The position numbers and the translations under genes are program-made. Of a DNA stretch of 64,000 nucleotides, positions 4,401 to 36,581 are shown one piece after another. This DNA is from a virus, in IMG/VR virus record IMGVR_UViG_3300032093_000060, positions 1-64,000 of that record; one strand, given 5' to 3'. Each line of letters starts with the position of its first letter. Positions within the stretch are counted from its first letter, which is position 1. The notes below the pieces were generated by a model. That model ran no database searches, was not told where the DNA came from, and worked only from the letters and a program-made list of their open reading frames with translations.

Positions 4401-7400
4401 ATCATCTTCATTTTCTCAGCACCTAATAACTCTGGTACTGGTTGTCCTTGCTCATCTTTATAAGCATACATGAGGTTATATATTTGATCAAAAGCATTGC
4501 TCATGTCAAATTCTTCACCCATTACTTTTACAATTTTTGATTGAAGCTCTCTTAACTTTGTAGTTAAATCTTTTCTTGAATCATAAAATTCTTGTGTATA
4601 TGCAACCCTTAAGTTTTGTTTAAGCCAGTCTTGTTTTGCTTTTTCTAATTCATCAGCAGTAAGATCTTCTTGATCTTTTAAACTTAAAAATTCATTATAA
4701 GCAGTTTGTAATGAACCAGCTCTAGGTATAAACTCATAATAATCTCCTGATGCAGCTCTATGTTCTAAAAGTATTCTTGTGATTGATAAATCATAAACAT
4801 CATTAGCTGGATCATCAACTTTTTCAGTACCATCTGGATATGTTAATGAGTAAAGATTTCTATAATCTCTCCATAGTTCTTGAAGAGTAGAATACTTTTG
4901 AAATCTTTCAAGCTCATCACTTAATTCATTTGATTCATTATTGTATGCGTCAAGTGCCATTTTTCTAGTAAGCCAAGCTCTCTTACCTAGATCTCCATAC
5001 TTATCAAATATATTATCTTTCTCATAAACTTCAGGAATAAACTCATCATGCATGTAGTCTCTCTTGAACTGTCTTAATGCATTTGTTGCTTCCTTAATTT
5101 TTTCTTGATCTTCTGTAGACCATGCTTCATCAACCTGATACTCTAAAAGATCTTGTGCATATCTCCAACCATTACCAAATTCATTTAAGAAAGTAAATAC
5201 TTCTTTCTCAACAGGTTTTTTTGTTTTTGGATCAATGAATAAGATCTTATCCTTAAACATTAATAAATCTGTAAGCTGTCTTGTTTTTAAAGTATTATAT
5301 CCAACTCGTTCTAATAATGGTTCAAGTTGTTTCCTAAATTTATATGATTTTTCAAGGGCCCTGTTATTAGCTTCTGTTCTTTGATCATTAATAAAAATAG
5401 CTAATCCACCTACTATAGGATCATTACTAGATGTATAGCTCTCAAAGAATCTATTGAACCAACTTACATCTTTTAATTTACCTGACAAACCATCAGTAAT
5501 TTTATCTTGGTTCATCAAGAAGGTATTATAGTCATCTATAAACTTCTTAATGTATTCAGGCTTAACTCCTTTCTTTTCATACTTGGCATATAGCTCTTCA
5601 TAATCTTCTGGAGTCAATGTTTGTGTAACCGCACCATTATATAGCTCTTCTATCTCTGTGGGAGTAAGTTTCCCAGTTAATGCATTTTTTAAATTCTTAC
5701 CAAGTTCTTCTTTTAAGAAGTCATTCATGTGACCTGTTATCTCAACATAGAAGTTAACTGCATTTTCTTTATAGATGTCACGGATTTTTTTATCAGCCCG
5801 CATCAAGTTGTTTTTAGTTTCATTAACTAAGTCAACAAGATCATTTGGTTGTGTAACATCAAAACCTTCAACTTCCATTAAGAGCTCATCAAATGTATTG
5901 AACATATCATTATATGATCTAACTGAGCTTCTGTATAAAAATAAAAGTGCCATTGCATCTCGGGAAGAATCAAACTGCCCACTCTTCTGCATCTTAACAA
6001 GATCATTAAAGATGTTCTGAGAAATATTATTTACAACAGTAACACTGTTTACAAAACTTCTTGCTCTGTTAGTTAAGTCCGTAGTTCTTGCTTTTTCTGC
6101 TTCAACAGTGTTTTTTATAATTTCATCAATTGATAGATCTTGAGTATTAGTTATGGTTTGATATCCACTAAGACTCTTTTTTACTCTTGGTGTTAACTCT
6201 TTAGTACCTTTAATAAATAAGGCTTCTCTTAACATTTTTTGGTAAAGCGGAGATCTTGTTCTAAAGTTCTTAGCTTTATCATATACTAATTGATTAGTTG
6301 CATATAAATCATTAAGAGAGTTCTGTATTTGATCAGCCTTTAAATTTTTAGTTAAAGAATCTGCCATAGCTTTTATTTCTCTGGCATATGCAAAGACATC
6401 ATCATTAGTAACATTAGGAGTTTCATACTTAAATGATTTTTCCAAAAGCATATCAGCTAATTCATCAATGCTTGTATCAACATCTATTTTTGCTACACTA
6501 ACTTTAAAGATTCTTTTTAATAGATTTCTTAAACTATCAAGCATCTTTCTTATAAAAGATTCAAATCCTTCAGATTCAATTTGTTCAGTTACTTTATTAG
6601 CAGCTCTAGTCTGTAATGCATATGCTAATGCTTCCTCTTTAAATAAGAAATTATTCTCATCTAATTCTGGATAGTTCATTTCCACATGCTCTTTAATTCT
6701 TTTACCTTCTAATGTTGCCATTAGAGAATCATAAAGATTATTAAATAAAGTAGGATTCTCTCTATAAATAGCTCTAAGTAAAGGGTGAGACATCTCGTGA
6801 AGTACTGTATCAAAGTTTACATTATCCCCAACAATGTATACGGTTCCTCCAAAGTAAAAAGCTGGTTCACCATTATATTTTTTCTTACTTGATTCATGTA
6901 TTTGTCTAGCTTGTTCTGCTGTAATGTTCATGTATCTTACACCCAGTCCTTCAGCAAGTCTATTACCTAATGCATCTGCTGCTTCTCTAGCTCTTGCATT
7001 TTTAATTGTTGCTTCATCAATCTTTGAATCAGCTGGATCTGACATGCTTGTAAATTTATCATTTGCAAAAGTAAAATATCTAAATCCTTTATTGGTAAAC
7101 TTATATCTATCTTCAAAGAAAGGGTCGAAATAAATAAGGTCAGTTAAGTCTTTACCTCTACCCATATTTATTTTTGCTTCAAAGATCTGTTTCCAATCTA
7201 AGTAGTAATTATCAAATACTAATGGATATTTACCCTCATCAGTTCTTAAAAAGAAATCAAGAACATATCTTTTAGGCAGTACTTTACCATTATCGGAAGC
7301 TTTAAAAAAGTTAGCTGCCCCACTACCATCTGCACCTTCTACAAGTACTGTTTCAGTTGGATGTTCAACATATCCAGAAATAGTTATTGATTCACCTTTC

Positions 7401-9079
7401 TTATGATCTTTACCAATAAAAGCAACTTCAAAATTCCAAGTTGGAAACAACTCCTTTAAGTTTTTATACCAAGATTGCTCTTCAAGAAATGGCATCATTT
7501 CTCTAACAAACTTTTCACTGTTTCTTTTACTTCTTTTTTTACTTAAAGGTAATCCTGTCTCTTGAATCCACTTTAAAAATTCCTCAGAATTTTTTTCACT
7601 TCTAAATTGTTCAAGAGTTATAATACCATCTATATCATGTAATTCTTCACTAATTGATCTTAGAACTCTACCATACTTTCTAAGTACTAATGAACCACTT
7701 AATTTATAGTCAAAAGGTGAGTCAAATAAAGTGTCAACTATATACTTTGCATAATCATCTCTTTGAAGACTTGTTTTATAAAATTTTTGCTCATATTCTT
7801 TACCCTTGTTATCAAAGAAATTTCCAGATTCATCTTGATAATAGTTTCTAATAAATTTTTGATATTGCTTTTTATATACATCATCTACAATGTCAAGAAC
7901 AGTATTTCTAAGTTCTTCTTCTTTATATATAGTAATGGCTTTATTGTTAAGAATATTAGCCTGCCACCAGTTATAAAACCTATTCCACATTTTTAAAAAC
8001 CAATTCTCAGCATACTTATCTTTATAACCTAAGCTTTCAAAGTATTCTTTACTGATATCAGGATTTTGTTTTTTATTCCCAAAATAATTGTTATCAACAC
8101 CAACAACAATCATTTCTGCTACAAATTCTAGTATAGCTTGTTTATGAGCATATGGATTAAATCTTGTTGGATCATACTCATATACTTTATCAATTAAATC
8201 TTTAGCTTGTCTATCTTCAAGATAAGGTGTATCTACATATACATCATCTTCTTCTTCAGCTAGATAATCAATTTCTTCTTTTGATGTTTCTTCCGTAGTA
8301 TTTTTACGTTTGTTATACTTTTCATAGACCTCTTTATATTTGGGCCAACTATCAATTCCTTTCCAAAGTTCAATACCAAGTTTAGACTTTTTACCTAAGA
8401 AACTAACAATAACATTAGCTGTTTGCATAGCCATGTCTTTGTCAGATATATTTTCTTTAATTGCTAAGAACTTTTGTAATAAATCAAAAGCTGCTAATGG
8501 ATCCTCTTTAACTATAGTATTACCATTAGCATCAGTATAAGTTCTTCTTTTAATAGGGACCAATACTGCATCAGCATCAATTTCATCTACTTTGATATTT
8601 AATCCTTTCATAAATGAAAGCATTGCTGCTCTCATTTTTTTAGAATACTCTCTATTTAAACTTTCTGTTGAGAAAGTTTTTCTCATGTACATTGGATCTA
8701 ATGACTCATCTGGTGGAAAGTATGCTTCTGGTTCTTTTAAAATATCAAAATCATTCTCAGCTATTTTTACTTCCTCTTCAAATCTCAATTTATCTAATGA
8801 ATCAAACAATGCATCATTAGGTTGTACAAAAAGTCTTACACTGTATGTATCTCTATAGTATGCAGAAGATCTAGTAAGTTTTGTTTTTACTTCATAAGGA
8901 TCATCAAAAAAATATTCACCTTGAGGAATTTTTATATCTGGATATTTAAGCTCTATAAATCTTGTGAACTCTTTATTAAAAGTATCAAATGCATTTTTAT
9001 CTAAAATATCATTATACTCACCAAGTATACCCTTTTGTTTTAAATCTTCTAAAACTGTTGACTTAGATTCACAATACAT
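1439..9079 (-). CDS. Giant virion cargo protein with zincin-like metalloprotease motif, LysM-like module and C-terminal membrane segment (2,546 aa)
   Basis: One uninterrupted frame of 2,546 aa, three bases after the RNA polymerase gene and so probably co-transcribed with it. Visible landmarks: a zincin-type HEMSH (HExxH) near residue 758, preceded by a beta-like strand GTVYIVGD and followed about 60 residues later by a Glu-rich helix (KEEALAYAL) that could supply the third zinc ligand; a long helical, charged middle (~850-2150) without recognisable domains; a LysM-like segment (~2210-2262, YVKGQTLEDIAKMYGVIVEE then EFEDGQEIIIA); and a hydrophobic stretch (FIITMALLASMLWGY, ~2378-2398) that may cross or insert into a membrane. 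crAss-like phages carry zincin domains in very large proteins beside the virion RNA polymerase. By that analogy this is probably an ejected cargo protein that processes cargo or the cell envelope. The exact role is inferred. Confidence 0.72.
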   Translation of the reverse strand: MYCESKSTVLEDLKQKGILGEYNDILDKNAFDTFNKEFTRFIELKYPDIKIPQGEYFFDDPYEVKTKLTRSSAYYRDTYSVRLFVQPNDALFDSLDKLRFEEEVKIAENDFDILKEPEAYFPPDESLDPMYMRKTFSTESLNREYSKKMRAAMLSFMKGLNIKVDEIDADAVLVPIKRRTYTDANGNTIVKEDPLAAFDLLQKFLAIKENISDKDMAMQTANVIVSFLGKKSKLGIELWKGIDSWPKYKEVYEKYNKRKNTTEETSKEEIDYLAEEEDDVYVDTPYLEDRQAKDLIDKVYEYDPTRFNPYAHKQAILEFVAEMIVVGVDNNYFGNKKQNPDISKEYFESLGYKDKYAENWFLKMWNRFYNWWQANILNNKAITIYKEEELRNTVLDIVDDVYKKQYQKFIRNYYQDESGNFFDNKGKEYEQKFYKTSLQRDDYAKYIVDTLFDSPFDYKLSGSLVLRKYGRVLRSISEELHDIDGIITLEQFRSEKNSEEFLKWIQETGLPLSKKRSKRNSEKFVREMMPFLEEQSWYKNLKELFPTWNFEVAFIGKDHKKGESITISGYVEHPTETVLVEGADGSGAANFFKASDNGKVLPKRYVLDFFLRTDEGKYPLVFDNYYLDWKQIFEAKINMGRGKDLTDLIYFDPFFEDRYKFTNKGFRYFTFANDKFTSMSDPADSKIDEATIKNARAREAADALGNRLAEGLGVRYMNITAEQARQIHESSKKKYNGEPAFYFGGTVYIVGDNVNFDTVLHEMSHPLLRAIYRENPTLFNNLYDSLMATLEGKRIKEHVEMNYPELDENNFLFKEEALAYALQTRAANKVTEQIESEGFESFIRKMLDSLRNLLKRIFKVSVAKIDVDTSIDELADMLLEKSFKYETPNVTNDDVFAYAREIKAMADSLTKNLKADQIQNSLNDLYATNQLVYDKAKNFRTRSPLYQKMLREALFIKGTKELTPRVKKSLSGYQTITNTQDLSIDEIIKNTVEAEKARTTDLTNRARSFVNSVTVVNNISQNIFNDLVKMQKSGQFDSSRDAMALLFLYRSSVRSYNDMFNTFDELLMEVEGFDVTQPNDLVDLVNETKNNLMRADKKIRDIYKENAVNFYVEITGHMNDFLKEELGKNLKNALTGKLTPTEIEELYNGAVTQTLTPEDYEELYAKYEKKGVKPEYIKKFIDDYNTFLMNQDKITDGLSGKLKDVSWFNRFFESYTSSNDPIVGGLAIFINDQRTEANNRALEKSYKFRKQLEPLLERVGYNTLKTRQLTDLLMFKDKILFIDPKTKKPVEKEVFTFLNEFGNGWRYAQDLLEYQVDEAWSTEDQEKIKEATNALRQFKRDYMHDEFIPEVYEKDNIFDKYGDLGKRAWLTRKMALDAYNNESNELSDELERFQKYSTLQELWRDYRNLYSLTYPDGTEKVDDPANDVYDLSITRILLEHRAASGDYYEFIPRAGSLQTAYNEFLSLKDQEDLTADELEKAKQDWLKQNLRVAYTQEFYDSRKDLTTKLRELQSKIVKVMGEEFDMSNAFDQIYNLMYAYKDEQGQPVPELLGAEKMKMIKKLNQEIIDYKAKFDTKTGLSRDEAEELDLYIALTKKGSDKLNDEQKLRYRQLLEKQAKSGLSIGEVALMQNIYAELSSLTRKTPTEYYIDSLNEHLQRLEVATVTEDEVDAFINGQEMRNLLSTDGKLVDWFRDNHVSRKVKNNKTRKLELRYERTMANSISIPKNEKYYEKTTLLNELTGEEETFNGLPNARHSQYRVKDKYRTGYNSKTGEVELEVGVHIDNKGQYLPRLFTNVNDSNSAKDDKYINKDYMRLKEQTTSARFQLLKLMKDAHLEFQEDKSNKSKLYLDMPRYILRDSLTRIQSGEISERYNQIKKGVGQYLRDSWGKSVDEGEREHNYERDNNLEEYRLVNTDLNSEEISYIPVSGLYNIDVDNTDPDVVRGMFKYLLSLEQQSQLLQTLPLVQSILDTLEDPANAPKSPNTYSKTLNRIKGKLVHTTKPGASNNRAGQVRSLIEREYYGKQYSGEGSSVYLDKFIGQMQKLSARASLAINIPSDLKNRYGQIVQNMIESAGGEFITVKDLAKARLWAATTMLEWSAKSVYSKGTPALSSQLIEMFDSAFKIEDDFGRSVSRNFAKDMMNGEWMYNIRKNLEMEASLQLFGAFLNAQKVEQKLSNGKTIMLNYKDAWQINKDTGIAELKPGVDPAWSNKTIYHDYVKGQTLEDIAKMYGVIVEELQQRNKVVDAIEFEDGQEIIIAKSEKFKLFRNKFQGVSHRLYGSYDKFAQSEGNLYLPYRMFTFMRKWFIPMFTNRFGASVEIQDGKWYKPKFNKRYDWMTTKTTIGFYINAFLGMKELIKSKGKYWSYMPADQKADLMRTLTESLFIITMALLASMLWGYDPDDPDRFKKIRERSGAFGTDEFKTWGFIQNHALLLLLGAQAETSAFVPLPTMFGVNFGADDYMKMATTTTSAFGNTIGLYVKIFEDIFKVITFNEKAYYQTDQGEYLWQKEGSPKVIGHLLKTVGINGNTGQVDIALEGLENAGRLK

Positions 9080-9082
9080 TAC

Positions 9083-12000
9083 TTAACATTTTAATGGGTT
9101 ATTTTCACCTTCAAATTTAGCTAATATTTCCGCATCTGTAATTGGTTGTAAATTAGCTATTTGATCACTTACCTCATTTGCAAATTCAGAACCTGGGTTT
9201 AAGTACTGGAATTCCTCAAATAATCTTCTACTTAAATATACGAATAATTCTTGAGGCATCAAAGCAGGATCACCATAACCATTAATTGAGAAAGCAACTT
9301 TACCTCCATCATTAATTACATCATTAATCTGAGCAATTGAGTCTTCAATAATGTTTTTAATACCGTCATAGTATTTAGCATCTAGTTTAGAAAAAGCATC
9401 AGATAAACTATTTTGTCCTGCTATTAAACCTATAGAAGAGCTATTTGCAAATCTTTTCAATAACACCTGACCGGATATTTTTTTCTTAGCAAACTCAGCT
9501 GGAGACATCTGCTCATATGCTTGTTTCTGACCAAGGCTGAATTGATATACAAAAGTAATATCTGGATTATTTTCAACTATATACTTATATGCATCTGCTG
9601 TTTCTGATAGATCATTATAAACAAAAACATTAGGATTAACAGTTGAAATTAGATTTACTCTTTTTACAATTGTTTCTGGTATCTCTGTATCTTCTTCAGA
9701 TATCTGATCTTCAAAAGACATTTCTGGGTTATTCCCCCAATAATTATATCCTTGAGATGTTTGACCCGTGGGTTCACCAATAGCTTCTTGCACTAATGCC
9801 TCACCACTTTTATTCCAAGATCTATTTGCATCTTCTGTGGAATCCATAATTACAGTACCACCGGCTTCAAGAATTTCTCTAGCATTTTCAATAGTTTCAT
9901 ATATAGCTTCTTTAGTTGCTTTATTGTTACCATTAACACTAACAAATGCTACAGTAAATTCACTTATTCTTCCTTCATAATTTATACTAATGCCACTCTT
10001 TGCTGCATCAATAGCATACTGATATGTGCTTGTACCAGGAGCTCCATATCCAACAAAATGATTTGCTAGATTAGCTTTACCTTGGTCTTTACCTTTTTTA
10101 TCAATAGATAATTTAAATCCAAATATAGACTTTGAGCTTATAGCTTTGCTTGATTTTTTAGGATTACTTAAAACATTTTCAACATCATAACCTGTCAAAT
10201 AGTTTTTAAAACGCATCTTGTTTTTATTATCAAGACCATTAGCTTTTACAAATCTATTTTTAAAATTGATTAGCATTTGATATTTCTGATCAGAACTTAA
10301 GTTTAAGAACTTAGATGTTTCATCATTCATAATATCTATAAACTGCTCAAAGTTTGTCAAGTTTAAGAAGTTGTATTTGTTTTTATTAGTACCAGCTTGC
10401 ATCATAGCAATAAATGTAATCTTTGCAAAGAAGTCACTTATTCTGTTATTCTCTTCTCTGTCAGTTACTTTTTGCACTGTTCTATCTGCAAGATCTCTAA
10501 GATTTTTTGTATAAAGATTAGACTTGAAGCTATTCATATCTTTATCATCCACAAACAAGTTAAACATTGTTTTATCAAAACTTGTGTCTACAACCATTCT
10601 AGAAAGAACAGGATAGTCTTTTACAAAATCAGTTCTATATTCAGTTTTAATTCTGTCTAGTCTTACACCATATGCAGTATCAGGATTATTAAATAGATGG
10701 TATGGATTCAATACATTATCAAGTGCTCTTGAAGCTAGAATTTTTTCATAAGCATATCTTCTTAAAAAAGTGTCATTTGCTTCAACTCTACTCTTCTTAA
10801 CATTCTCTAGTTCTTTTGCAAACTCTTTAGTTTTAACAACATCTGTTATAGGCATAAGATGTCTTAAGTACTCTCTTTCAATTACAAATCTGGTATACTC
10901 TTGTAAATTTGAATCTGTATTTTTAAATGTCCCTACAGGAAGCGGGTATAAACCACGTTTCATATAGCTATTTCTAGAATCTGAATCTTCTAAGAAGTCT
11001 TTATGGAAAAATTCTCTTTCAATTTGTACATTATCATATACCATTGTTGGTCCTTCTGGAGTTTCAACAACTTGCGCACCAAAGGTTAATCCAGCAGCTT
11101 GTGTAAGTTTAATTGAATCACTCAATGCATATGAACTATACTGATCATTAAGCTGATATTTTCTCATAGCATTTTGGAAAAGATAACTTAATAAGTCATT
11201 TCTAAATACCACTGGGAAGATATCTCTGTACTTTGCACCAAATGCTGCTTTTAGATATGCATTATTTTTAAAGTCAGATTGTATAGCATCTATATACATT
11301 TGAATATCTTCATCATATCTAAACTTAAATAATGGTTTAGATAAGCCTCTTACAAGCTTAGTATTAAAGAATGAACTAATAATTGAGTCATTAATCATAC
11401 TCATTCTGAGATCCTGATCAATCTTAGATTCTGTAGCTAACTCTTCTAGTTTTGTTTCAGCTTGTATTGCTTGACCTACATCCGTCATTGTTGATGTATC
11501 TGGATTAGATGCCATCTTTAAAGCAGTGAGACCTTGTATCTGTTGCTCAATAGTTAGAAAGTGTAAGAACATTGTGCGAGAAAGATTACTTCTAGCTGCT
11601 TTAGGATTATCCTTTGAATCCTCTATCAGTTTAAGCATTTCTTCTTCTGTAAAGAAGTTTCTACCAGCTTTAGTAAAATACTTATCTAACATATCTGCTC
11701 CTACCTCATATCTAGAAACATTATCTGCTAAATATTTTTCAAAGTTTCTAGCAATTACATTTCCAGCAGCTTTAAATGCTGGACCTTGTGTACCTGGTAA
11801 TTTTCTTAATGGTTCAGCAAATGTACTTTCTGCAAGTCTTTTTTCTTTTACATACTCTCTTACAAGAGGTTGTGATACAAAGTATACTGCTTCTTTAAAA
11901 GGAACTCCGGCTTTAAGTAAATATAATAGAATTGGAGCCACCTCATAGTTACCTTGTACAAAGAATACCCATGCATCTTTCTCAACATCCACCCAACCGT

Positions 12001-15000
12001 TCATTAACTGATTGATGATGTCAGCCACTTTATTTATACCATCAACATCATATTGTTTAGATATAGATATTACATCTTCTCCATTTTTTCTAACCTTATG
12101 GTGTCTTAATCCTAAAGTTGAGATTCTTTCATTTTCCTCAGTGCCATGTGTATACACAGCCGGCATTGTTGCACCTAATGAATTGAATATAACATTAAAG
12201 GTGTTTTCAATTGCTCCAAGACCGAGAGTCTTTTTACCTACAACATTTGACTCATGTTTATATAAGTTATATCCAACTTCAAATATTCTTGTTGGGCTGA
12301 TCACTTCTTTTTGTTTTCCACGTTTATCTGGAGCAGAAAGATTTACTGTATCAGATGACATGTTTTCTAATGGATTATAGTCCATAACAAACTGAGCTAA
12401 TTTATCTGCTGTAGGTTTAACAAGATATGTTCCGTTTGGTGTTGTTAAAGAAACAAAGTTCTCTGGCAATTCAAGTATACTTCTAATATTATTTAAGAGT
12501 AAGTTTTCAAGACCAGCTTTTTGCATAGCAAACATTTCTTCCTTAGTCAAATTATATTCAGAAGGATTTTTAAGTGCATTGTAGAACTCCTCAGCATTAT
12601 CAAACAAGGTTTGCATAACATTTCCATCAGCATCAATGTTATTCATGAATATAGATAACTTATCAATGTCAAAGTCAGCTCCTGATTTAGCTACAATTTC
12701 TGCTGGAGGTATAATTATATTACCTGCTTCTGGAGGTAAGAAATGATATATCTCCATAAATTCCATAGAGTTAAGACCCTGCACCGGAATCCTAACACCC
12801 ACCATAGTTATTGCTTTTCTGTTAGCTCCATCATTAGCATCTAACCATTCATCATCTTTAATAGCTTCATTAAGTCTATCAATTGTAGAAATAGGTTCAC
12901 CTTTATATTCTAGGTTTAATAAACTTTCGTAGTCTCCTTGTAGTGAAATAGCAACCTTCATTGCAGTTGTCAATCCATTTTTTCCAACATGATATGTAGG
13001 TAAAAAGTTAGAGCCCATGTATTTTTTAACTGCTTCAGCCCTAGCAGTTTTATTCATCTTATCTAGATCTATTGGTAATTCAAATAGACCATCATAGAAT
13101 GCAGATGATTTTTGTACAAGAGGTTCTCCTTTTACTTTTTGCTTGATTATTCTTTTGTTGATTAGAGACAATAAAAGTTTTTCAATCTTTACTGCTTCTG
13201 GATGTAGAGATAGGTCAAATCTTAAATCTCCAGCATCTGTAACATCAATAATATCAATTAAATCATCACTATATACATCATCAGCTGTAAGTGTGTCACG
13301 GATCATTTTTGCAAGCTTAGCTACACTATCTTTATCTTTAGGTACAAACTCACCGTCTTCAGTTTCTTCAAAACCAATTTCATTAATTAATTGATTTTTA
13401 AGTAGTTCAGTATATTCACCAACTCTATTAATATAATTTTGAGCAAGTTGTTTTACTCTTGGATCTTTAGAAACTATATCTCCATCTTCATATAATCCTT
13501 CAAGTACCATTTTTCTTAACTGAGTTGAGAAGATTGATACATTTTTATATTTAGAGTTTACTTCTGTTTGGTTCTTAAGATACTCTGCAAAAATTACATT
13601 TTTTGTAAATTGCACAGAACTATCAATATTACCGTTAGCATCTGTAATAACATCACCATTACCTATGTGACCAACCTTTTCTCCTGTTTCCATCAAAACA
13701 TAATCAACATTTTGAGATAACATCATATCATGAATTTGGCCCAACTTAGTTAACTCTGTGTGAACAGAAGGAATCAAAGGAGCTAATGAAAATTTGTGAA
13801 AAGATGTTAAAGGCAGTCCAGTTGTCTTAATGTTGCCATAGTACTGTAATTTATATGGAGGAAAATATTCTTTAATCTCCGCAGCAGTAATAGGTTCATT
13901 ATTTACAATTCTTTTATAAAGATTTTCTTGTTCAGGAGACCATTTATCTTCAAGAACTTTTAACATTCTATATGCTTCAAAATTAATCCATCCCTGACCA
14001 TCAGCAACTTTCATGTTATTATAGTCTTGTAATACAGTTGCTGCTAATTCTTTTGCTTTTTCTTTTGCCTCTGTTTTAGAAAAGCCTGCTTTTATAAATC
14101 TTTCAGTATATTGTTTTTCATGAAGCTTATTGTATTCATCATAGTATGGAGATTTTTCAATAACCTCTTCTCTAATTATGGCAGATGTCAACGTTCCGTT
14201 ATATGCATTTAAAGTATAACCTTCTCTTTCAGCATAGAGTCTTTGAAACATAGGACTATTTATATATGCTCTAGCTCTAAAGTCTGCACGGAACCCTCTA
14301 CCACCAGAACCTAAACCAGCATTTCTTTTATGAAACTCTTCTTTATCGTGATTGTATTGTACAGCATCACCATAAGCTAGTATTGTTGTTTCATAGTTAT
14401 GAATAAAATAGTTGTAAGTATATGCTTTGACAAACATTTTTTCTATTTGATCATTAGATAGATCTTGTTTACCAATCATTTCATAAAGACTCTGATCTAC
14501 ATATTTAGCACCTTGTAGTCTATTATAATTTTGCTGTGCCTGCTTGTTAAAGTAATTGATTATATCTTGTTTAACTTCTCTTCTTAAATCTACATTTTCA
14601 TTGATAATATCTTTAAGATTAAAGTCTTGAACATTATAATAACCACTTGCTGACATTTCTGCAGTAGCTTCTTCTATATTCTGATCTATTATTGCATACA
14701 GTTTTTCTTGTGTTTCTGAAGTCAACATGTCATCAAAAGCTGTAAATGCCTCTCCTGCTTTTACTACTTGACCATTATCTTTTCTTATTACATCTCTGTT
14801 ATAAGAAGAGAATTTTTCAAAATATGGCTTGTTTGATTTAAACCTATATATTCTTCCACCTTCTGCTGCAATATAACCAAGTATAATATTAAATGCTTCT
14901 AGTTCACCCTGATTGTTTCCAGCAACAGTATTATTTGGTGAGAAAGCTAAAGTATCTACGTATAAGTTATTTTGTTCTTTACCAGAATAAGTATTTACTT

Positions 15001-18000
15001 TTTTTGCTCTAAGATTCATTGCTGTTTGCTTAGAGGCATGTCTCATAAACTCTACCACACCGGATTGTAACATTGTATGTAGCTCTTGTAAAAATTTACT
15101 AGTAACATCTGTAGTAGCTGTTAAAGCTCCAGTAGATTCATTAGTATCTCTATTTACAATTTGAGTACCTCCAATGTTTTCTAATAAGAGCTGAGCTCCT
15201 GGAAACTTATTTCCATAATTATCTGATAATGGATTTAAGTCAAATATTGAATTTAATACTACAGAGAATTCTGAAGCAGGGTTATTTGCTTCATTCAGCC
15301 ATCTCATATGCTGAAATCTACCGTTAGGATCTGCTTTACTCATGGTTAATTGTTGCCATGTCTCAGCTCTATTTATGGAAGTTACAATTCTAGTGATAGT
15401 GTTATCTAAGAATTGTTCCCATACTCTATTCTTTTCAGGAGTTAAAACACTAAAGTTAGAATAGCCATCTGAGTATCTGTTTTGTAACTCTGCTAAACCT
15501 GTTATTTTTGTTCTAACATCCCTTGCTTTTCCACCTGCAGCTTTTTCTATTGCTTCCGGTAATCCATTTAGTAAATAATACATTGGATTAAGCTTGAAAT
15601 TTTCAGCAGCTGCATTTAATGCAATATCATCAGCTTTTGCTGATAGATGAACTAATCTTAAGTTGTCAAAAATAAAGTCAACATTGTATCTTCCTGCAAA
15701 AGATTTCTTTGGATTTCTAACAACTGTTCTAATATCAGCACTTGTCATATCCATAACAATACCAAGAGACTTTAAAAGATCATTTGCTTTAGACTGATCT
15801 AAGACTTTACCTTTATTGTCAACACTAAAATCCTTTATGATTTGTGCAACATTCAGATAATTAACACTTGAGTTATTGGGTCTTATTATATATGGGTTTG
15901 TTGCAGGATCTGCAATGTTAAAATTGGTTGTCCAATCATTTATAATTCTATATATATCAAGGTTGGCTGCAGATAATCTTGATTCATATCTAGCTTTTTC
16001 TGGTATAAATTTACCATCAACTTTTTTAGCTTTTTCTAAAACACTCTTATTAATTGTAAGTTGTATGTATGGAATAACTGGTTTTTTAAAGTCTTGCCAA
16101 AAACTTGTCTCAGATCTAAACTCACTACTATTATTATATGCAGCTGGGCCCATTTGATATGGATTAGGAAGTGCTTCAAGAACTTGAATAAATTCAGGAT
16201 TGTTATCTGTACCTTCTCTAAGTCTCTCATACATTTCTTCAAAATCCAATGAACCCTGTAGAGTTCTGGCAGTTCTATTCCACATATCATTTAGTGGTTC
16301 TAAAACTGGAAGACCAAACTCATCAGTTTCTATACTGTATGCCTTTACACCATTCTCATCTGTTTCAAAAATATAATCCTCATTTTCATCTCTTTGCAGT
16401 TTGTATATTCCTGATAACATCATTAATGTATCGTCTGTAGCTAATTCTTTTGCTGAAAAAGTATTGCCCTCAGTAGATTTGAATACAGCAACTGTTGCAT
16501 CTTCTGCATCATCAACATATTCATCTTTAAGAATACTAAATCTAGATCTTCTCATATGAAAAGATACTACACCCTTGTTAGTTTTCTTAGATAGAGATAG
16601 TGCAATGTCTCCAAAATTTGCAACTGCTTTAAATAAAGTATCAAGTTTATTTTGCTCTGCTAATTCAGTTATATAATCAGGATTTTCAGAAGTTGCATTT
16701 TTGAGAGTCAAGCCTTTTACAATGTCCACCTGCCTTTCATACAAAGCTGTTAACTGCTTCTCTACAGAAGCATACATCCTTTGTCTGTTATTTACATCTC
16801 CTAATAATCTTGTAGCACCACTTGTTGTATTATATCTTGTATTATATAGTCTAAAGTTTCTAGCAAATAAAGAATCTATAATATCAACAATTTTATTTGA
16901 TTCTGTATCTGAAATTTCTACAAATGCTTCAGCTTCATTTTTTAAAGGTTGAATAAGATTTTTAGAGCTATTCAATCTTTGGAAACCTGGCATTATATTG
17001 CTCTCTGCATTCTGAGTATCAATTGTAAAATTACCGGTGTACAGTTTTTCAAAATATTCTTTAACTACAGGAATATCATAAAGCTTTGATACATCTTTTT
17101 TACTTGTTTTTCCAAAGAAGTAATCAATTAACTTTTTAATTTTATCAAATATAGTTTGAATAAATCCTTTTTGTTTTGTACCGTTAACAGCATATTCAAT
17201 AAAGTCTTCAGCTAAGTCTTCTTCAATTTCTATATATTCTTTAGTTGCCCACTTATCATAGGTTCTAATAGTATCATATAGTTTAGTTTTTTCTTCTCTT
17301 GTAAGTACAAGCTGAGAAAAAGCATGCCATGCCTCATGGTATAATGTAATTGGTGTTGCATCTCCATAAAGATCTATTCTTGCTGCAAAACCTTCTTGTC
17401 TAAGTTTATTTGTTGCATCAGATAAAAGAGAGCCAGCAGAAAGAAATTTTCCATATGCAGTAGAGTTAAACACAAGAGCAAGTCTTTGCCTTTCTACTTT
17501 TGCTAGAAATTTTAAAGGAGTTGTATCCCACCATTTTTCTACTTCATCCCAAGTTTTAGCATTTCCATAAAGTTGATTCATCATTGATGATGCCACTTTC
17601 TTTCTCTCTATTCCTCCTTCAGGTATGTATTCAAAACCTTCAAGAAAGTCTAATGAAGGTATACTATTTATTTTTTTGTCATTTAGCTTTTGTTGTTCTA
17701 CTGTTTTTGTTGGTACAGGTTCTTTTTCTGGAACAGTAGTAGACTCATCAACTGGTAAAGCAACTTTTGCTGCAGCTTTTTTATAAGTTTTAGAGGACTT
17801 AGAAACAAATCTTTTTACAAAATTTTCTTTACTGTTTTTCTTTATTATAAATCCACCTTTTGTTCTTGCAGGATATCTTAATGCAAAACCTTTAAAGGCT
17901 CTTACTTTAACGGGAATACCTAATTTTTTTGCAGCTTTGATTGATGCTTCCGCTATACCGGTTTGACCATTGCTTACAATTTTAGTTATAGGATATTGTT

Positions 18001-20326
18001 TAACTACTTCACTAAGAATATTGTATACATACTCATCAACATCCTTTTGAGTATAACCATCCTTAGATAATAAAGCCATGTCAGTTCCAACAATGTTTAC
18101 TACACCATTAGATATCTTGGACAATCCCTGAACAATATTATTAACTGTATTTTCTGCCAGTTTAAAATTCTTTGGGGCATCCTTTTTAGAACCAATTTTT
18201 AGAGCATAGTATTTATCACTTTTTGAAATATTATTTGCTACTCCAGTGGCCATAAAAGATGTACCTAATCCAAAAACAACATCAGATTCTTTAGCATTAG
18301 CAAGCATTACTCCCTCATTATCTAAGGTACTTTGAAAAACTTCAATAGAAAATTTCTTTCCTGTTTCCTCATCTTCTTCAGTTATAGCTTTTGAAGGAAG
18401 TGAAACATTTGTACCATTATCAATATCATCTGATGTTAAATCATCATTGATTGGTGAGTCAATATCAATCTGCTCACTCAGTGGAGTTGTTAAATCTGCA
18501 GGTACAGTAAATGATAGATATGCATTTATTCCAACAAAGTAGTTTGCATCACCCTCTGTATAATCAACTTTCATGAATGGTTTAATAAAATCAAAGTAAT
18601 CTTTCTTTACTTCTCTTATTATATCAACTCCATCTTTGTTTTTTGTTATTTGATAATCAGAAAACTGCACCCCTTTTTGGATTGCACCATCAACTGCAAA
18701 GTCCTCCATGTAACTCATACTTGCTGGATATGAGACTTGAGTACCATCATTTTTATTAATGATTTTTGTTTTCATTAGATGCTTACTAATTATATCAGCA
18801 GCATCATCTTTATCTAAGTCAACATTAGTTTTTTCTTTGGTAGCAGGATCTTCTAATACAACAGAAAGCTTTTGCTCATTCAGTACTTCTTTTATCTCTA
18901 CATTAATTCTATTGTTAGTTGTAGTATTTGCTAAGAAGGTAGAGTAGTATTTAAGTTTAGCTTGTGGAGTCATAGGTTCTCCATTTAGTAAACCTTTTGT
19001 TGTTAAAACAGCTGCAATATTATCAGCAATCTCTTTTGTAATGTCCATTCTTTGTAAATAGATTTGGCCATTAACCGATACTCCAGCACTTACTTTATTA
19101 GTAAGGAAATAACTATATCCTTCAAGACCTGCTGCATGGATATAGATCATCTCAACATCATTAGCAAAATCTGTTTTAGAAAGTAACTGTGATTTATGTT
19201 CAATTATCCCGTAGCTTCCATCATTTATGGGTAGCATGACAAACTGTTGATCACTTGGTAAATTAGCAAGCTTTTCATTTAGTCTTGCTAAGTCATTCAT
19301 TTTTTGTTTTTGCTTACTTCTAATATCTGATATTAATGATTGTCTTTCTTTATCTCCATACAAAATACCATTATTAGTTTCATCAGTTATTTGTTTTTGT
19401 GCAAGTTCCTCTGCTGAAATTAAATTATATATATAACCAGAGCGATTTCCTAGATATAACTTACCTTGTCTATTTACTACAGGTCTAATATATTGATAAA
19501 CTATTCTTCCACCTTGTTTAACTACATTACCATTTTCATCAAATCTAATAGGATTACCTATTGTATCAGATATGATGGCAACATTGATATCATATGTTTT
19601 ATTCTTAGCTAAGAATGTTTTATCATCATTAGTAAGATCATCCGGTGCAAGGGATCTAATAGGTTGAGCTCTTAATGCAACTGCAGTATCACCCAACATT
19701 ACTTGATCATTTACATTCCTTTTCTTTGCACTCCATACAGTAGCTTTAATTACGTCATAGAAAAGTTTCTTTTGAGGATCTTTTTGATTTCTTTCAGCCT
19801 CACTCATTGTTTCAGGATTCTTTGCAATTGCAATATTTCCAGTTAACTTATCTGGATAATCTACTTTTGCTTTTTCCTGCACCGCAGACCAAATTCCTTT
19901 TTCATTGTTATTATTATCTTGACCAATATTTTTAGAGTTCTTATTGCTTGATTTAATACTACTCTTTATAGACTTAGAAGATGGCTTACTAACCGGACGA
20001 GTAACAAATTTTACTACATTATCTAAATTTTCAAAATCCAAAGATAAATCTTGTACATAGTCAAAACTTAAACCTGCATCTTTTCTTAAATATGTTTTAA
20101 TTTCAAGATCATTCTTAACAATGTCTAACATATCTGGAATAGCTTGTACATAAAGAAGACCATTAGGTTCATCTTTATATTCTTCGTACACCTCCTTAAT
20201 AAATTTATCAAGAGCTTTATTGTCAAATTTACCAAGTTTTGGATCATTGATTCTATCCATGATCTCTCCATGTACTATTGTGTATAAAGCACTTATATCA
20301 TTTTCAGTATAGAGTTGACAAGCCAT
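9083..20326 (-). CDS. Giant multidomain virion RNA polymerase with SLOG-like and zincin domains (3,747 aa)
   Basis: The largest gene of the window. Domain order by eye: unknown N-terminus; a SLOG (cpYpsA-like) Rossmann domain at ~665-830 (VVFGLGTSFMA; IVSNGQTGIAEASIKAAKKL); a zincin motif HEAWH near ~995 with Glu-rich EEDLAEDFIEYA ~45 residues later; the RNA polymerase core; then two C-terminal nucleotide-binding-like domains (~3413-3530, FVGYGAPGTSTYQYA; ~3560-3720, FVYNDLSETADAYKY). The polymerase is identified by the metal-binding motif SGADFDIDKL at ~2549. This matches the DxDxD/DFDGD active site of double-psi beta-barrel polymerases, including the virion RNA polymerase of crAss-like phages, and is preceded by RIPVQGLNSMEF. 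An upstream block (LPLTSFHKFSLAPLIPS) fits the other barrel. In the family the enzyme is packaged and injected, and transcribes early genes. The usual central Gly is Ile here. It lies between other giant genes with 2-3 base gaps. Confidence 0.85.
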   Translation of the reverse strand: MACQLYTENDISALYTIVHGEIMDRINDPKLGKFDNKALDKFIKEVYEEYKDEPNGLLYVQAIPDMLDIVKNDLEIKTYLRKDAGLSFDYVQDLSLDFENLDNVVKFVTRPVSKPSSKSIKSSIKSSNKNSKNIGQDNNNNEKGIWSAVQEKAKVDYPDKLTGNIAIAKNPETMSEAERNQKDPQKKLFYDVIKATVWSAKKRNVNDQVMLGDTAVALRAQPIRSLAPDDLTNDDKTFLAKNKTYDINVAIISDTIGNPIRFDENGNVVKQGGRIVYQYIRPVVNRQGKLYLGNRSGYIYNLISAEELAQKQITDETNNGILYGDKERQSLISDIRSKQKQKMNDLARLNEKLANLPSDQQFVMLPINDGSYGIIEHKSQLLSKTDFANDVEMIYIHAAGLEGYSYFLTNKVSAGVSVNGQIYLQRMDITKEIADNIAAVLTTKGLLNGEPMTPQAKLKYYSTFLANTTTNNRINVEIKEVLNEQKLSVVLEDPATKEKTNVDLDKDDAADIISKHLMKTKIINKNDGTQVSYPASMSYMEDFAVDGAIQKGVQFSDYQITKNKDGVDIIREVKKDYFDFIKPFMKVDYTEGDANYFVGINAYLSFTVPADLTTPLSEQIDIDSPINDDLTSDDIDNGTNVSLPSKAITEEDEETGKKFSIEVFQSTLDNEGVMLANAKESDVVFGLGTSFMATGVANNISKSDKYYALKIGSKKDAPKNFKLAENTVNNIVQGLSKISNGVVNIVGTDMALLSKDGYTQKDVDEYVYNILSEVVKQYPITKIVSNGQTGIAEASIKAAKKLGIPVKVRAFKGFALRYPARTKGGFIIKKNSKENFVKRFVSKSSKTYKKAAAKVALPVDESTTVPEKEPVPTKTVEQQKLNDKKINSIPSLDFLEGFEYIPEGGIERKKVASSMMNQLYGNAKTWDEVEKWWDTTPLKFLAKVERQRLALVFNSTAYGKFLSAGSLLSDATNKLRQEGFAARIDLYGDATPITLYHEAWHAFSQLVLTREEKTKLYDTIRTYDKWATKEYIEIEEDLAEDFIEYAVNGTKQKGFIQTIFDKIKKLIDYFFGKTSKKDVSKLYDIPVVKEYFEKLYTGNFTIDTQNAESNIMPGFQRLNSSKNLIQPLKNEAEAFVEISDTESNKIVDIIDSLFARNFRLYNTRYNTTSGATRLLGDVNNRQRMYASVEKQLTALYERQVDIVKGLTLKNATSENPDYITELAEQNKLDTLFKAVANFGDIALSLSKKTNKGVVSFHMRRSRFSILKDEYVDDAEDATVAVFKSTEGNTFSAKELATDDTLMMLSGIYKLQRDENEDYIFETDENGVKAYSIETDEFGLPVLEPLNDMWNRTARTLQGSLDFEEMYERLREGTDNNPEFIQVLEALPNPYQMGPAAYNNSSEFRSETSFWQDFKKPVIPYIQLTINKSVLEKAKKVDGKFIPEKARYESRLSAANLDIYRIINDWTTNFNIADPATNPYIIRPNNSSVNYLNVAQIIKDFSVDNKGKVLDQSKANDLLKSLGIVMDMTSADIRTVVRNPKKSFAGRYNVDFIFDNLRLVHLSAKADDIALNAAAENFKLNPMYYLLNGLPEAIEKAAGGKARDVRTKITGLAELQNRYSDGYSNFSVLTPEKNRVWEQFLDNTITRIVTSINRAETWQQLTMSKADPNGRFQHMRWLNEANNPASEFSVVLNSIFDLNPLSDNYGNKFPGAQLLLENIGGTQIVNRDTNESTGALTATTDVTSKFLQELHTMLQSGVVEFMRHASKQTAMNLRAKKVNTYSGKEQNNLYVDTLAFSPNNTVAGNNQGELEAFNIILGYIAAEGGRIYRFKSNKPYFEKFSSYNRDVIRKDNGQVVKAGEAFTAFDDMLTSETQEKLYAIIDQNIEEATAEMSASGYYNVQDFNLKDIINENVDLRREVKQDIINYFNKQAQQNYNRLQGAKYVDQSLYEMIGKQDLSNDQIEKMFVKAYTYNYFIHNYETTILAYGDAVQYNHDKEEFHKRNAGLGSGGRGFRADFRARAYINSPMFQRLYAEREGYTLNAYNGTLTSAIIREEVIEKSPYYDEYNKLHEKQYTERFIKAGFSKTEAKEKAKELAATVLQDYNNMKVADGQGWINFEAYRMLKVLEDKWSPEQENLYKRIVNNEPITAAEIKEYFPPYKLQYYGNIKTTGLPLTSFHKFSLAPLIPSVHTELTKLGQIHDMMLSQNVDYVLMETGEKVGHIGNGDVITDANGNIDSSVQFTKNVIFAEYLKNQTEVNSKYKNVSIFSTQLRKMVLEGLYEDGDIVSKDPRVKQLAQNYINRVGEYTELLKNQLINEIGFEETEDGEFVPKDKDSVAKLAKMIRDTLTADDVYSDDLIDIIDVTDAGDLRFDLSLHPEAVKIEKLLLSLINKRIIKQKVKGEPLVQKSSAFYDGLFELPIDLDKMNKTARAEAVKKYMGSNFLPTYHVGKNGLTTAMKVAISLQGDYESLLNLEYKGEPISTIDRLNEAIKDDEWLDANDGANRKAITMVGVRIPVQGLNSMEFMEIYHFLPPEAGNIIIPPAEIVAKSGADFDIDKLSIFMNNIDADGNVMQTLFDNAEEFYNALKNPSEYNLTKEEMFAMQKAGLENLLLNNIRSILELPENFVSLTTPNGTYLVKPTADKLAQFVMDYNPLENMSSDTVNLSAPDKRGKQKEVISPTRIFEVGYNLYKHESNVVGKKTLGLGAIENTFNVIFNSLGATMPAVYTHGTEENERISTLGLRHHKVRKNGEDVISISKQYDVDGINKVADIINQLMNGWVDVEKDAWVFFVQGNYEVAPILLYLLKAGVPFKEAVYFVSQPLVREYVKEKRLAESTFAEPLRKLPGTQGPAFKAAGNVIARNFEKYLADNVSRYEVGADMLDKYFTKAGRNFFTEEEMLKLIEDSKDNPKAARSNLSRTMFLHFLTIEQQIQGLTALKMASNPDTSTMTDVGQAIQAETKLEELATESKIDQDLRMSMINDSIISSFFNTKLVRGLSKPLFKFRYDEDIQMYIDAIQSDFKNNAYLKAAFGAKYRDIFPVVFRNDLLSYLFQNAMRKYQLNDQYSSYALSDSIKLTQAAGLTFGAQVVETPEGPTMVYDNVQIEREFFHKDFLEDSDSRNSYMKRGLYPLPVGTFKNTDSNLQEYTRFVIEREYLRHLMPITDVVKTKEFAKELENVKKSRVEANDTFLRRYAYEKILASRALDNVLNPYHLFNNPDTAYGVRLDRIKTEYRTDFVKDYPVLSRMVVDTSFDKTMFNLFVDDKDMNSFKSNLYTKNLRDLADRTVQKVTDREENNRISDFFAKITFIAMMQAGTNKNKYNFLNLTNFEQFIDIMNDETSKFLNLSSDQKYQMLINFKNRFVKANGLDNKNKMRFKNYLTGYDVENVLSNPKKSSKAISSKSIFGFKLSIDKKGKDQGKANLANHFVGYGAPGTSTYQYAIDAAKSGISINYEGRISEFTVAFVSVNGNNKATKEAIYETIENAREILEAGGTVIMDSTEDANRSWNKSGEALVQEAIGEPTGQTSQGYNYWGNNPEMSFEDQISEEDTEIPETIVKRVNLISTVNPNVFVYNDLSETADAYKYIVENNPDITFVYQFSLGQKQAYEQMSPAEFAKKKISGQVLLKRFANSSSIGLIAGQNSLSDAFSKLDAKYYDGIKNIIEDSIAQINDVINDGGKVAFSINGYGDPALMPQELFVYLSRRLFEEFQYLNPGSEFANEVSDQIANLQPITDAEILAKFEGENNPLKC

Positions 20327-20328
20327 TC

Positions 20329-23300
20329 CTATTTTGGTTTACATTTATTAATATTATCTTCTTTACTCTTATTTTTCAATGCTGCTAATCTATCTTTTTT
20401 AGACATTGTAGATGCATTTTGTTTTGCTTGATTGATTAACTCAGGATTGTCTGCAAAATCTTTAATACTGCTTTTTGAAATTGTTGAATTTTCTTTTTCT
20501 TCTAGTGTGGGTTCCATAACTTCTTCTTCTACTTTTAATGCTTCTTCTGTAGTTTTAGTAAAGCTAGATTTTATCTGTGCATCAGTAAAAGTTTTCTGTC
20601 TTGGTTTACCATTTTGAATATTCTGAACTTGGTTAACAGTTACTTTACCATCTGCTTTTTTCTTAACTACTACTATTTCATTTTCAGTGATACCAAAGAT
20701 AGGATTTTTGCTAATAAGATAATCACCTACATTAATATTTTCCTCTGATGTATCAATATTTAATGCTTTCTTTCTCATGAAATATACATTCTCAATCATA
20801 TCTGTTGCCTCTATACTTGTTTCTGCAGATATTGCAAAAATTGCATCAGTATATGCTTTTTCTAATTCTGCTAAATCCTTAGCAGATTTAATAGCATCAA
20901 TTAGTTTTACAAACTCTTCTACTGAGATTGATTCAATATCAAATGTAATACCTGACTTACCAGCAAGCAATGCTTTTCTTTCTTCTTCACTAAGTTCATC
21001 CTCCTCATTTACATTAGTTTCGGTAGTTTCTAAAGCAGATAATTTTGTTTCAAGTGTTTTCTTTCTAGCCATGATCTTTTCATATTCAGGAGAATATGTT
21101 ACCATGCTACCGACAGTTATAACTCCACCATTTGGAAGTGCCGCTAACTTTTTATCTTGATCAGCAATTTGTTTTTTTAACTTTTTAATTTCAGCTTGTT
21201 TTTGAGCTTCAGTTAATACAGGTATAGATGGTGTCTCATCTATATTTTCTGGTTTTAAATTTTCTGGAAGAGCAGGAGCTTTCATAATTACACCATTCTC
21301 TGCTAAGACATTATCATCAATAGGAGTAAGTGGCATTGTTGTAGCCTTTTCTAAGTTCTTAACTCTTTTTTCTAATGCTTCAATCTCCTCAGTGTTTGGC
21401 GCAGTTGCTTTTTTAAGTGCAAGTATTTTATTATTTAGTTCTCTAATAACAGGAAGATTTAATTTCTTAGCTGCTGATTCAGCACTTAATATATTACCAT
21501 CCATATCAGTTGTTAATTCAACCGGTAGAATTGATATATTATTGGCTAATTGTCCAGTCATATTAAATATTAATGCTCTATACAAAGAGAGTTGTAATCT
21601 ATATGCAAACTTTTTACTGTAAGGATTATTCTCATCATTAAAAGATGCCCAGTTTTCAGGCTTACCTGTTTTAATATCTATGATTTTAAGATTGCCCTTT
21701 TTATCAATAGCAATTAAGTCCATAGCACCAACTAGTCCTGACTCAAGTAAAGTAGGATCATATAGGATAACATCTTGTGAAATAATATCAAACTCACCAT
21801 CTATAGCTGCATCTTGTAGCTCAGTCACTATTCCTCTATCACCAAATAGATTATCATAGGCTTGTTGACTCATTTTAGCTGGCTTCTCAGGTCTCATAAA
21901 CTTACCATTCTTATCCAAAGTAAATGCAACACGTGTCATTGCATCCACTGTATTACCAGCAATGGTAGATTCATCATGAGCAATATCTTTAACAACAGCA
22001 ACTAATGTATCTTCTGTAAATCTATTATCTAATGCTTTTTTGATTTTATTAATCTTTCTCTGACTTTTTAGTTGTTTTAACTTATTATTTTTTAACTCAC
22101 TTTCAAGAGCTTGAATAAATAAATTAACTCTTTCTGCATCAGAGGCAATAGCATCATCTTCTTTAATAGCTCTAAAGATAGAAATCAATTGACCTTGAGG
22201 TTTTCCTGTTTTAGCATCAACCCCTGGTTCTTTAATAGCAGCATATAGGTAAGCTTCTTTCTGATTGATTTTATTATCTATCTCTTCTGTAAGTTTTGTT
22301 ACCCGCATTGGTCTACCGTCTACTCCTGGAAACTCATAACCAATTGTATTTCCTTCTGCATCTAAAACTCTTGTAACTCCACCTTGTTTGTTAACTACCA
22401 TCTCTTCAAAAATTCTGAAGACTTGTTGATATTTACTTTTTGGTTTAGTATTTAATCTCAAGTAGTTTAGATATTTTCCTAACTCCTTTATATCATTTTT
22501 TATATTTCTTGATTGTTCTGCAGTTAGAGGTTTATCATTATAGTTATTTTTTCTAAGAATATTTTCTAACTCATCTCTCATCAATCGAATTCTAGTTAAA
22601 CCATATTCAGTAATTGGTTTCTTTAAAGGCAAAAATTTAATGTTTGGTAAAGCTGATTCAAGATCCATAGGTCTTTCATTGTAAGCTTTAATCATTTGTT
22701 TTTGTTCTGGTTTTTCAAGCCAGTTATTCCTTAAAAGATTATATTGTTCAGGATTTACTCTTTCTAAATCTTTTGGTTTACCTAAACCTTGTGGAGCAGG
22801 TGAAGTTAAATACTCATCAAAAGCTATTTGTAACTCTGCTCTAAGATCATCAGGAAGTTCATTCCATGGTGCATTAAGATCTACCTCATCTGAAGTTGTT
22901 TTTTTAGATGGTGCTTGTGGTCTTGGTGGAGTATCTTCTGTAGATTCAGTAATTTGATCTTTTAATTTTTTTACAAGAGCATCATACCTTCTATTGGTTG
23001 TCTCAATTTGTTTTTGATAATCTTTCCAGGCATCAGTTGTTTCAATTGGTCTAACTGTTTCAGATTCTTCAACAGGCTCAATGGTATTTAATTCAGCAAT
23101 TTTATCATTGAATATTTGATTAAGACCAAATTTCATTTCAACTGCTCTAAGTCTTTCTTCATCAGAGTAGTCTTCTTTACTTAATGTCTTAAGAAATTTT
23201 TTAGCTTCTTTAGTGTTATCAGCAATAGCTTTATCTTTTATCTCAGCCCAATTTTCAGGAATAAGATTCTGTTCAGCTAAAGCTTCATATAGTTCATTTA

Positions 23301-36554: not shown

Positions 36555-36581
36555 AGTTTAACAAATAAACATAATAAGTTT
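36555..36581. promoter_or_regulatory. Degenerate copy of the AAGTTT/AAAC palindromic element
   Basis: AGTTTA, ATAAAC and AAGTTTA lie in alternating orientation in the 58-base gap before the 1,275-aa gene, 34 bases from its ATG. The minus-strand stretch AAACTTATTATGTTTATT matches the start of the element at 30058-30081 with one change. It overlaps the stop codon of the 2,383-aa gene. It could be a promoter or operator for the second half of the cargo block; this rests on similarity of two sites only. Confidence 0.33.

Follow-up and report, generated by a model that had tools for sequence, protein, structure and literature searches.

The gene considered here lies on the minus strand of the window, by which we mean the whole analysed stretch of 64,000 nucleotides, that is, the first 64 kb of the 89,792-bp virus record IMGVR_UViG_3300032093_000060. 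As judged from a profile match to a solved polymerase and from invariant motifs, it encodes a crAss-type virion RNA polymerase of the single-chain kind, whose chain also carries an SLOG domain and a zincin, in agreement with an earlier sequence-only reading of this stretch, which also had the coordinates and the length of the open reading frame (ORF) exactly right. What is new here is that two positions in the chain, slot 1 ahead of the zincin and slot 2 near the C-terminus, vary across about 40 relatives while the zincin, the core and the tail domain stay. The features of the gene are as follows.

9083..20326, minus strand: crAss-type virion RNA polymerase, polyprotein-like gene; ATG start, 3,747 amino acids (aa)
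18527..20326, minus strand: N-terminal region, residues 1-600, kept in most relatives; no known domain
17804..18373, minus strand: slot 1, SLOG (cpYpsA-type) domain, residues ~652-841, optional in the family
17042..17614, minus strand: zincin-like metallopeptidase domain, residues 905-1095, from the alignment of relatives
17324..17338, minus strand: HEAWH zinc-binding motif, residues 997-1001, from motif search and alignment
11717..14779, minus strand: polymerase core, residues 1850-2870, homologous to the phi14:2 virion RNA polymerase (PDB 6vr4)
12662..12676, minus strand: DFDID catalytic motif, residues 2551-2555, from motif search, alignment and the 6vr4 profile match
9722..10120, minus strand: slot 2, unnamed exchangeable module, residues 3403-3535, with the motif NRSWNxxGEALVQ
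9086..9664, minus strand: conserved C-terminal DUF7831-like domain, residues 3555-3747, from alignment, model, and profile and structure comparison

The polymerase core and the flanking domains

The profile of the core, built from 21 relatives, matches PDB 6vr4, the DNA-dependent RNA polymerase of the crAss-like phage phi14:2, with E=5.4e-28, and 6vr4 was the sole solved protein with a significant score in this PDB search. The match covers three stretches of 6vr4 (923-1222, 1327-1414 and 1593-1680), each of which passes singly or nearly so. The second stretch contains DFDID, and there 'ksGadfdidk' of the profile is paired with 'ktGsdfdidk' of 6vr4. The D-x-D-x-D positions and the neighbouring lysines are invariant in all 21 aligned relatives. 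The sequence-only reading had placed the DFDID active site at about 2549 and the HEAWH of a zincin at about 995, and had proposed the alignment of the DFDID region as a check; the alignment bears it out, and both motifs are found two residues further on. HEAWH together with downstream glutamates (EE..AE) is invariant in 17 of the 17 aligned relatives, and the third zinc ligand is probably among the conserved glutamates that follow it. Each of the two motifs is unique of its kind in the protein, save for DLDKD at 503. The tblastn matches of the protein belong to the Crassvirales, with core identity of about 24%. Single-sequence searches with the whole protein against Pfam and PDB yielded nothing significant, the weak proteasome matches being due to chance, and a DNA-level search of phage records gave no matches.

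The N-terminal SLOG domain claimed by the same reading holds at the level of the family. Pfam cpYpsA (PF12694) is matched by five of eight aligned SLOG family members (best 1.5e-10), the window region matches PHROG 10774 (6e-12, over 726-819), and residues ~652-841 are predicted to form an alpha/beta structure with the predicted local distance difference test score (pLDDT) of about 57-94. The membership of the window copy in cpYpsA is thus predicted from its relatives.

At the other end of the chain, two Rossmann-like segments had been proposed, and each proposal stands in part. The region 3560-3720 has a confident alpha/beta model (mostly pLDDT 79-95), and the last ~190 residues look like DUF7831, rather than being a demonstrated Rossmann or SLOG domain: the profile comparison with DUF7831 (PF25176) yields hhalign E 7.7e-5 at the probability of 62%, and in the viral structure search DUF7831 ranks 1, 2, 4 and 7 (Foldseek probability 0.97-1.00, E 6e-3 to 8e-2). 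A Pfam search with this domain gave no direct match. The other segment, proposed at 3413-3530, is real as a module, with a Rossmann-like fold that is at most putative, the model having pLDDT below about 65. The slot-2 module matched nothing in Pfam, and a profile comparison with the SLOG domain detected no relatedness.

Variable slots and module exchange

The first scan of IMG/VR yielded 31 related loci with 35-47% identity, most of them full length, and later module searches added more, to a total of about 40 relatives; the loci are metagenomic and many are partial. The zincin and the core are retained wherever the sequence of a relative extends to them, and the tail domain is retained in most. 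Slot 1 contains SLOG, SLOG with a second module, or linker only. SLOG is present in the window, L004/L009/L015, L014, L016, L017, L022, L031 and L033, the last having it together with a second module of the slot-2 type; elsewhere short or unrelated linkers are found instead. Slot 2 is either empty or occupied by a short linker, the module of the window (also present in L034), NADAR (by Pfam, 1.7e-16 in L020 and, weaker, 0.0034 in L021), DUF7831 (1.1e-9 in L013), an AlkB-like 2OG-Fe(II) oxygenase (1.8e-8 in L028), or other inserts. Presence, absence and replacement of modules in the slots are thus shown, and many of the add-ons come from families linked to the chemistry of nicotinamide adenine dinucleotide (NAD) and ADP-ribose. 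The strongest comparison for slot 2 is provided by three near relatives with the same junction: G002 is empty there, G001 has the module type of the window, and G005 has an unrelated insert of ~430 aa, which may be nucleotidyltransferase-like.

The slot-2 module is a real, separately evolving unit. The copies in the window and L034 are 83% identical at the DNA level over 387 nt, with abrupt edges, whereas outside the module the two proteins have 36-60% aa identity depending on the region, with 36-40% in the two bordering regions, and about 49% over the C-terminal part with the module included. In the core tree, L034 groups with the NADAR-bearing L020/L021, apart from the window. At that, in the near relative L170/G001 the module is 62% identical to that of the window, while the whole C-terminal part is 73% identical. 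The window module is therefore closer to the one in the distant L034 than to the one in its own near relative. All eight close homologues of the module are situated near the C-terminal end of giant ORFs, and in seven of these eight a polymerase core is visible in the fetched part.

In more distant polymerases, the modules are joined by a conserved piece of DNA. The near-invariant 21-bp sequence ACTCAACCATCTACTAGTGTT, coding in frame for TQPSTSV, is found between modules of giant phage ORFs in up to seven copies per gene, its codon choice being fixed far beyond what the protein sequence requires. The C-terminal slot of L028 (6082-12294 of IMGVR_UViG_3300035182_001043) is a chain of AlkB-like, macro-like (by eye), NADAR, slot-2 type and superfamily 1 (SF1) helicase modules, most of which are preceded by one and the same DNA linker, here coding for TQSSTSV and present in 7 copies. 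In IMG/VR, 64 stretches (L040-L103) contain the pattern ACYCARYCATCTACTAGTGTT, which in 63 of them is in frame within an open frame of 201-4,260 aa, and a codon-degenerate search produced one exact sequence 48 times, the other codon choices in long frames being near variants or unrelated. Chance origin of the linker was rejected, because 63 of the 64 loci are in frame (open frames of at least 200 aa) and the long-frame matches of the codon-degenerate search are concentrated on one codon choice and its near variants.

The polymerase core is seen in the fetched part of 32 out of 70 linker-bearing ORFs; relative to the core, the linker lies downstream in 36 cases and elsewhere in 4, with no assignment in 7. 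Among the modules flanked by it are 2OG-Fe(II) oxygenase, DUF7831, ART-PolyVal, cpYpsA, NADAR, helicase and zeta-toxin-like domains. Modules share 65-97% identity across polymerases that have 24-30% identity in the core or cores that BLAST cannot align. The string TQPSTSV was not found in the open-access papers searched, subscription papers and supplements being outside that search. The window does not contain the linker, even if three mismatches are allowed; the window protein nevertheless displays the same slot-wise exchange. We suggest, tentatively and with somewhat less than even confidence, that in environmental crAss-like phages the virion RNA polymerase serves as a chassis on which effector cassettes are exchanged, in part of this family via the fixed 21-bp sequence that joins them, and that this arms the injected polymerase against differing host defences. 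Such exchange would be a phage counterpart of the cassette shuffling in integron-like systems or polymorphic toxins, and the linker, if confirmed, would be a new route for reshuffling of phage proteins.

The role of the add-ons

We consider it likely that the injected crAss-type polymerase is a delivery vehicle whose add-ons, exchanged by recombination, can act on nucleotide-based host defence. The polymerase would be carried inside the capsid, be injected along with the DNA and transcribe early genes before phage proteins are made, as established for phi14:2 and as homology and gene order suggest for the present phage. The conserved zincin probably cleaves its own chain or a host protein, and SLOG in the N-terminal slot probably binds or cleaves a signal of the ADP-ribose type. 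The module in the C-terminal slot would be one of a set of interchangeable domains, recombination changing the add-ons in both slots. Arriving in the cell together with the first DNA, the add-ons could act on the nucleotide-based defence at once.

For the slot domains themselves, an anti-defence role is the leading reading, to which we give slightly better than even chances, because the slot families (SLOG, NADAR, ART and, by eye, DUF4326-like) are the ones for which a role in countering or producing NAD-derived signals has been proposed (PMC9503650). The sequence-only reading had suggested such a tool; the suggestion, still a conjecture, is strengthened by the variable add-on positions, often filled with NAD/ADP-ribose-associated domains. 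Its description of nucleotide-sensing domains on both sides of the core applies only loosely.

Several observations weigh against the delivery of such add-ons as set out above. Some slot contents are outside NAD/ADP-ribose chemistry (the AlkB-like, helicase and nucleotidyltransferase-like inserts). The distribution of SLOG in slot 1 needs 3 changes on the core tree, and slot-1 SLOG looks ancestral and then lost, not often swapped; with just 3 changes required, loss explains the distribution as well as mobility of SLOG in this slot would. The window's own SLOG copy has no Pfam match. Structural search of PDB gave no match with E<=0.001 either for the SLOG plus zincin model or for the C-terminal model; matches to KaiC and to dual-specificity phosphatase were taken as generic alpha/beta similarity. 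Finally, the two double-psi barrels of the core are predicted from homology to 6vr4.

Of the other explanations, the one that survives best, though we find it rather unlikely, is that the zincin processes the protein during head assembly, so that the polymerase and the add-ons are injected separately; it is compatible with the delivery-vehicle explanation and differs from it in the manner of delivery. The zincin is kept in relatives whose sequence extends to the region, and DdrB of P1 is processed before packaging, as discussed in PMC5512222; on the other hand, the N4 virion RNA polymerase, which also bears a zincin, is packaged unprocessed (PMC5512222), and in the window protein no site of cleavage was found.

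It is less probable still that the SLOG and slot-2 domains assist the polymerase itself, binding nucleotides or single-stranded DNA for template capture, initiation or packaging, as in SLOG proteins of the DprA type. Some Crassvirales homologues are indeed annotated as DprA-like, one linker-associated segment matches DprA, and SLOG is old and stable in a part of the family. However, relatives with equally conserved cores have no SLOG or an empty slot 2, and hence the polymerase can do without the slot domains; moreover, no part in transcription initiation is known for the alternative contents of slot 2 or of the linker-flanked modules (NADAR, AlkB-like, ADP-ribosyltransferase). That the add-ons are neutral or selfish mobile domain-coding DNA, inserting at tolerant surface sites and spread by recombination with no benefit to the phage, would agree with the conserved linker DNA and with the similarity of modules between strongly diverged cores, but is improbable, given that the modules retain intact reading frames and recognisable enzyme families and that their repertoire has domains in common with the proposed injected counter-defence proteins (PMC9503650, PMC5512222).

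Under the delivery-vehicle reading, one injected chain would combine early transcription with probable counter-defence, and the domains that may be delivered by crAss-like phages ahead of any gene expression can be listed concretely. Because slot 2 differs between close relatives, a comparison of polymerases that are alike elsewhere can show what each add-on does.

Genome setting and comparison with known systems

The polymerase gene belongs to a run of genes for giant proteins, following the structural genes, and is tightly flanked by two further giant ORFs on the same strand.

20329..26742, minus strand: upstream neighbour, 2,137 aa, related to the Crassvirales 'putative RNA-polymerase subunit', with a PD-(D/E)XK domain at residues 1651-1797
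1439..9079, minus strand: downstream neighbour, 2,546 aa, with HExxH (HEMSH, 761) and a weak LysM match at 2220-2245

The PD-(D/E)XK domain has been described in some crAss-like transcription proteins (PMC7886860), and phiCrAss001 virions contain RNA polymerase-associated proteins, as observed by mass spectrometry (PMC10172136). The downstream protein, for which a search of phage records found no match, is probably a further cargo protein. One more large protein of the window (2,383 aa, 36580-43731, minus strand) carries two HExxH motifs (176 and 1265) and matches DUF6782, a putative metallopeptidase domain, with 3.2e-9. Beyond the window, the record encodes portal, terminase, capsid, IHF-like and amidase genes, recognised by reading and, for the capsid, by search. 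The phage is a distant, unclassified relative of the crAss-like phages, as judged from its major capsid protein, because the top match of the latter is in Leptolyngbya phage Lbo-JY46 (28.5%), followed by Cellulophaga phages phi17:2/phi4:1 and csAssE-Sib (28%, partial).

The Crassvirales are characterised by giant polymerases, which reach ~6,000 aa (PMC10136315), and the basic list of parts is not new, being present already in classified Crassvirales proteins. The sequence-only reading had considered the arrangement unusual; this part of it has to be abandoned, since cr10_1 gp32, PhiCrAssBcn1_13 and the N4-type polymerases (PMC5512222) combine such parts. The cr10_1 gp32 protein (4,460 aa, Suoliviridae) has a zincin at 1788-1938, a core with DFDID at 3331 and SLOG at 4236-4425, so that its SLOG is C-terminal, whereas that of the window protein is N-terminal. 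PhiCrAssBcn1_13 (2,608 aa) has an N-terminal SLOG (86-260) and a core with DFDVD. The cr108_1 gp054/053 pair has a zincin and a core, the gene being interrupted at the DFDID region: in the interval 10380-10671 of cr108_1 (L035, NC_055878) it is split into two coding sequences, the first ending at the residue equivalent to 2551 of the window protein and the second beginning at 2571, a pattern that an intron within the catalytic site would be expected to give. The cr113_1 gp38 gene (L036, NC_055896, 6883-19869; 4,328 aa, annotated as DprA-like) has HEAWH, DFDID and 73 in-frame stops under table 11, which is consistent with stop-codon recoding. A 3.5-kb contig assigned to Bifidobacterium breve by binning (L163, CALPIE020000201.1) contains a fragment with 50% identity to the polymerase core; the contig is probably from a phage and mis-binned.

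The phi14:2 polymerase (6vr4) has the same core by sequence profile, DFDID included, and comprises 2,194 aa as against 3,747 in the window protein. The latter has, in addition to the core on which the likeness is judged, the zincin, SLOG, the slot-2 module and the DUF7831-like tail.

The polymerase of N4 is a member of the T7-like single-subunit class, whereas the polymerase of the window protein is predicted to be of the double-psi-barrel type. The virion RNA polymerases of the N4 type are likewise fused to zincins and ADP-ribosyltransferases and are described as polyvalent proteins (PMC5512222). The likeness lies in an early polymerase, a zincin and effector-type domains joined in one giant chain, and the window protein by its domain composition is a polyvalent protein too, with several unrelated effector or enzyme domains in one phage polypeptide. 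The repertoire of its family (SLOG, NADAR, DUF7831, AlkB-like, with slot-wise exchange) differs from that of the N4-type proteins. The viral network of NAD+/ADP-ribose domains (SLOG, NADAR, DUF4326, ART) has been proposed to counter NAD-derived signals of the host (PMC9503650); the window family shares domain families with this network, and here they are fused to a virion polymerase.
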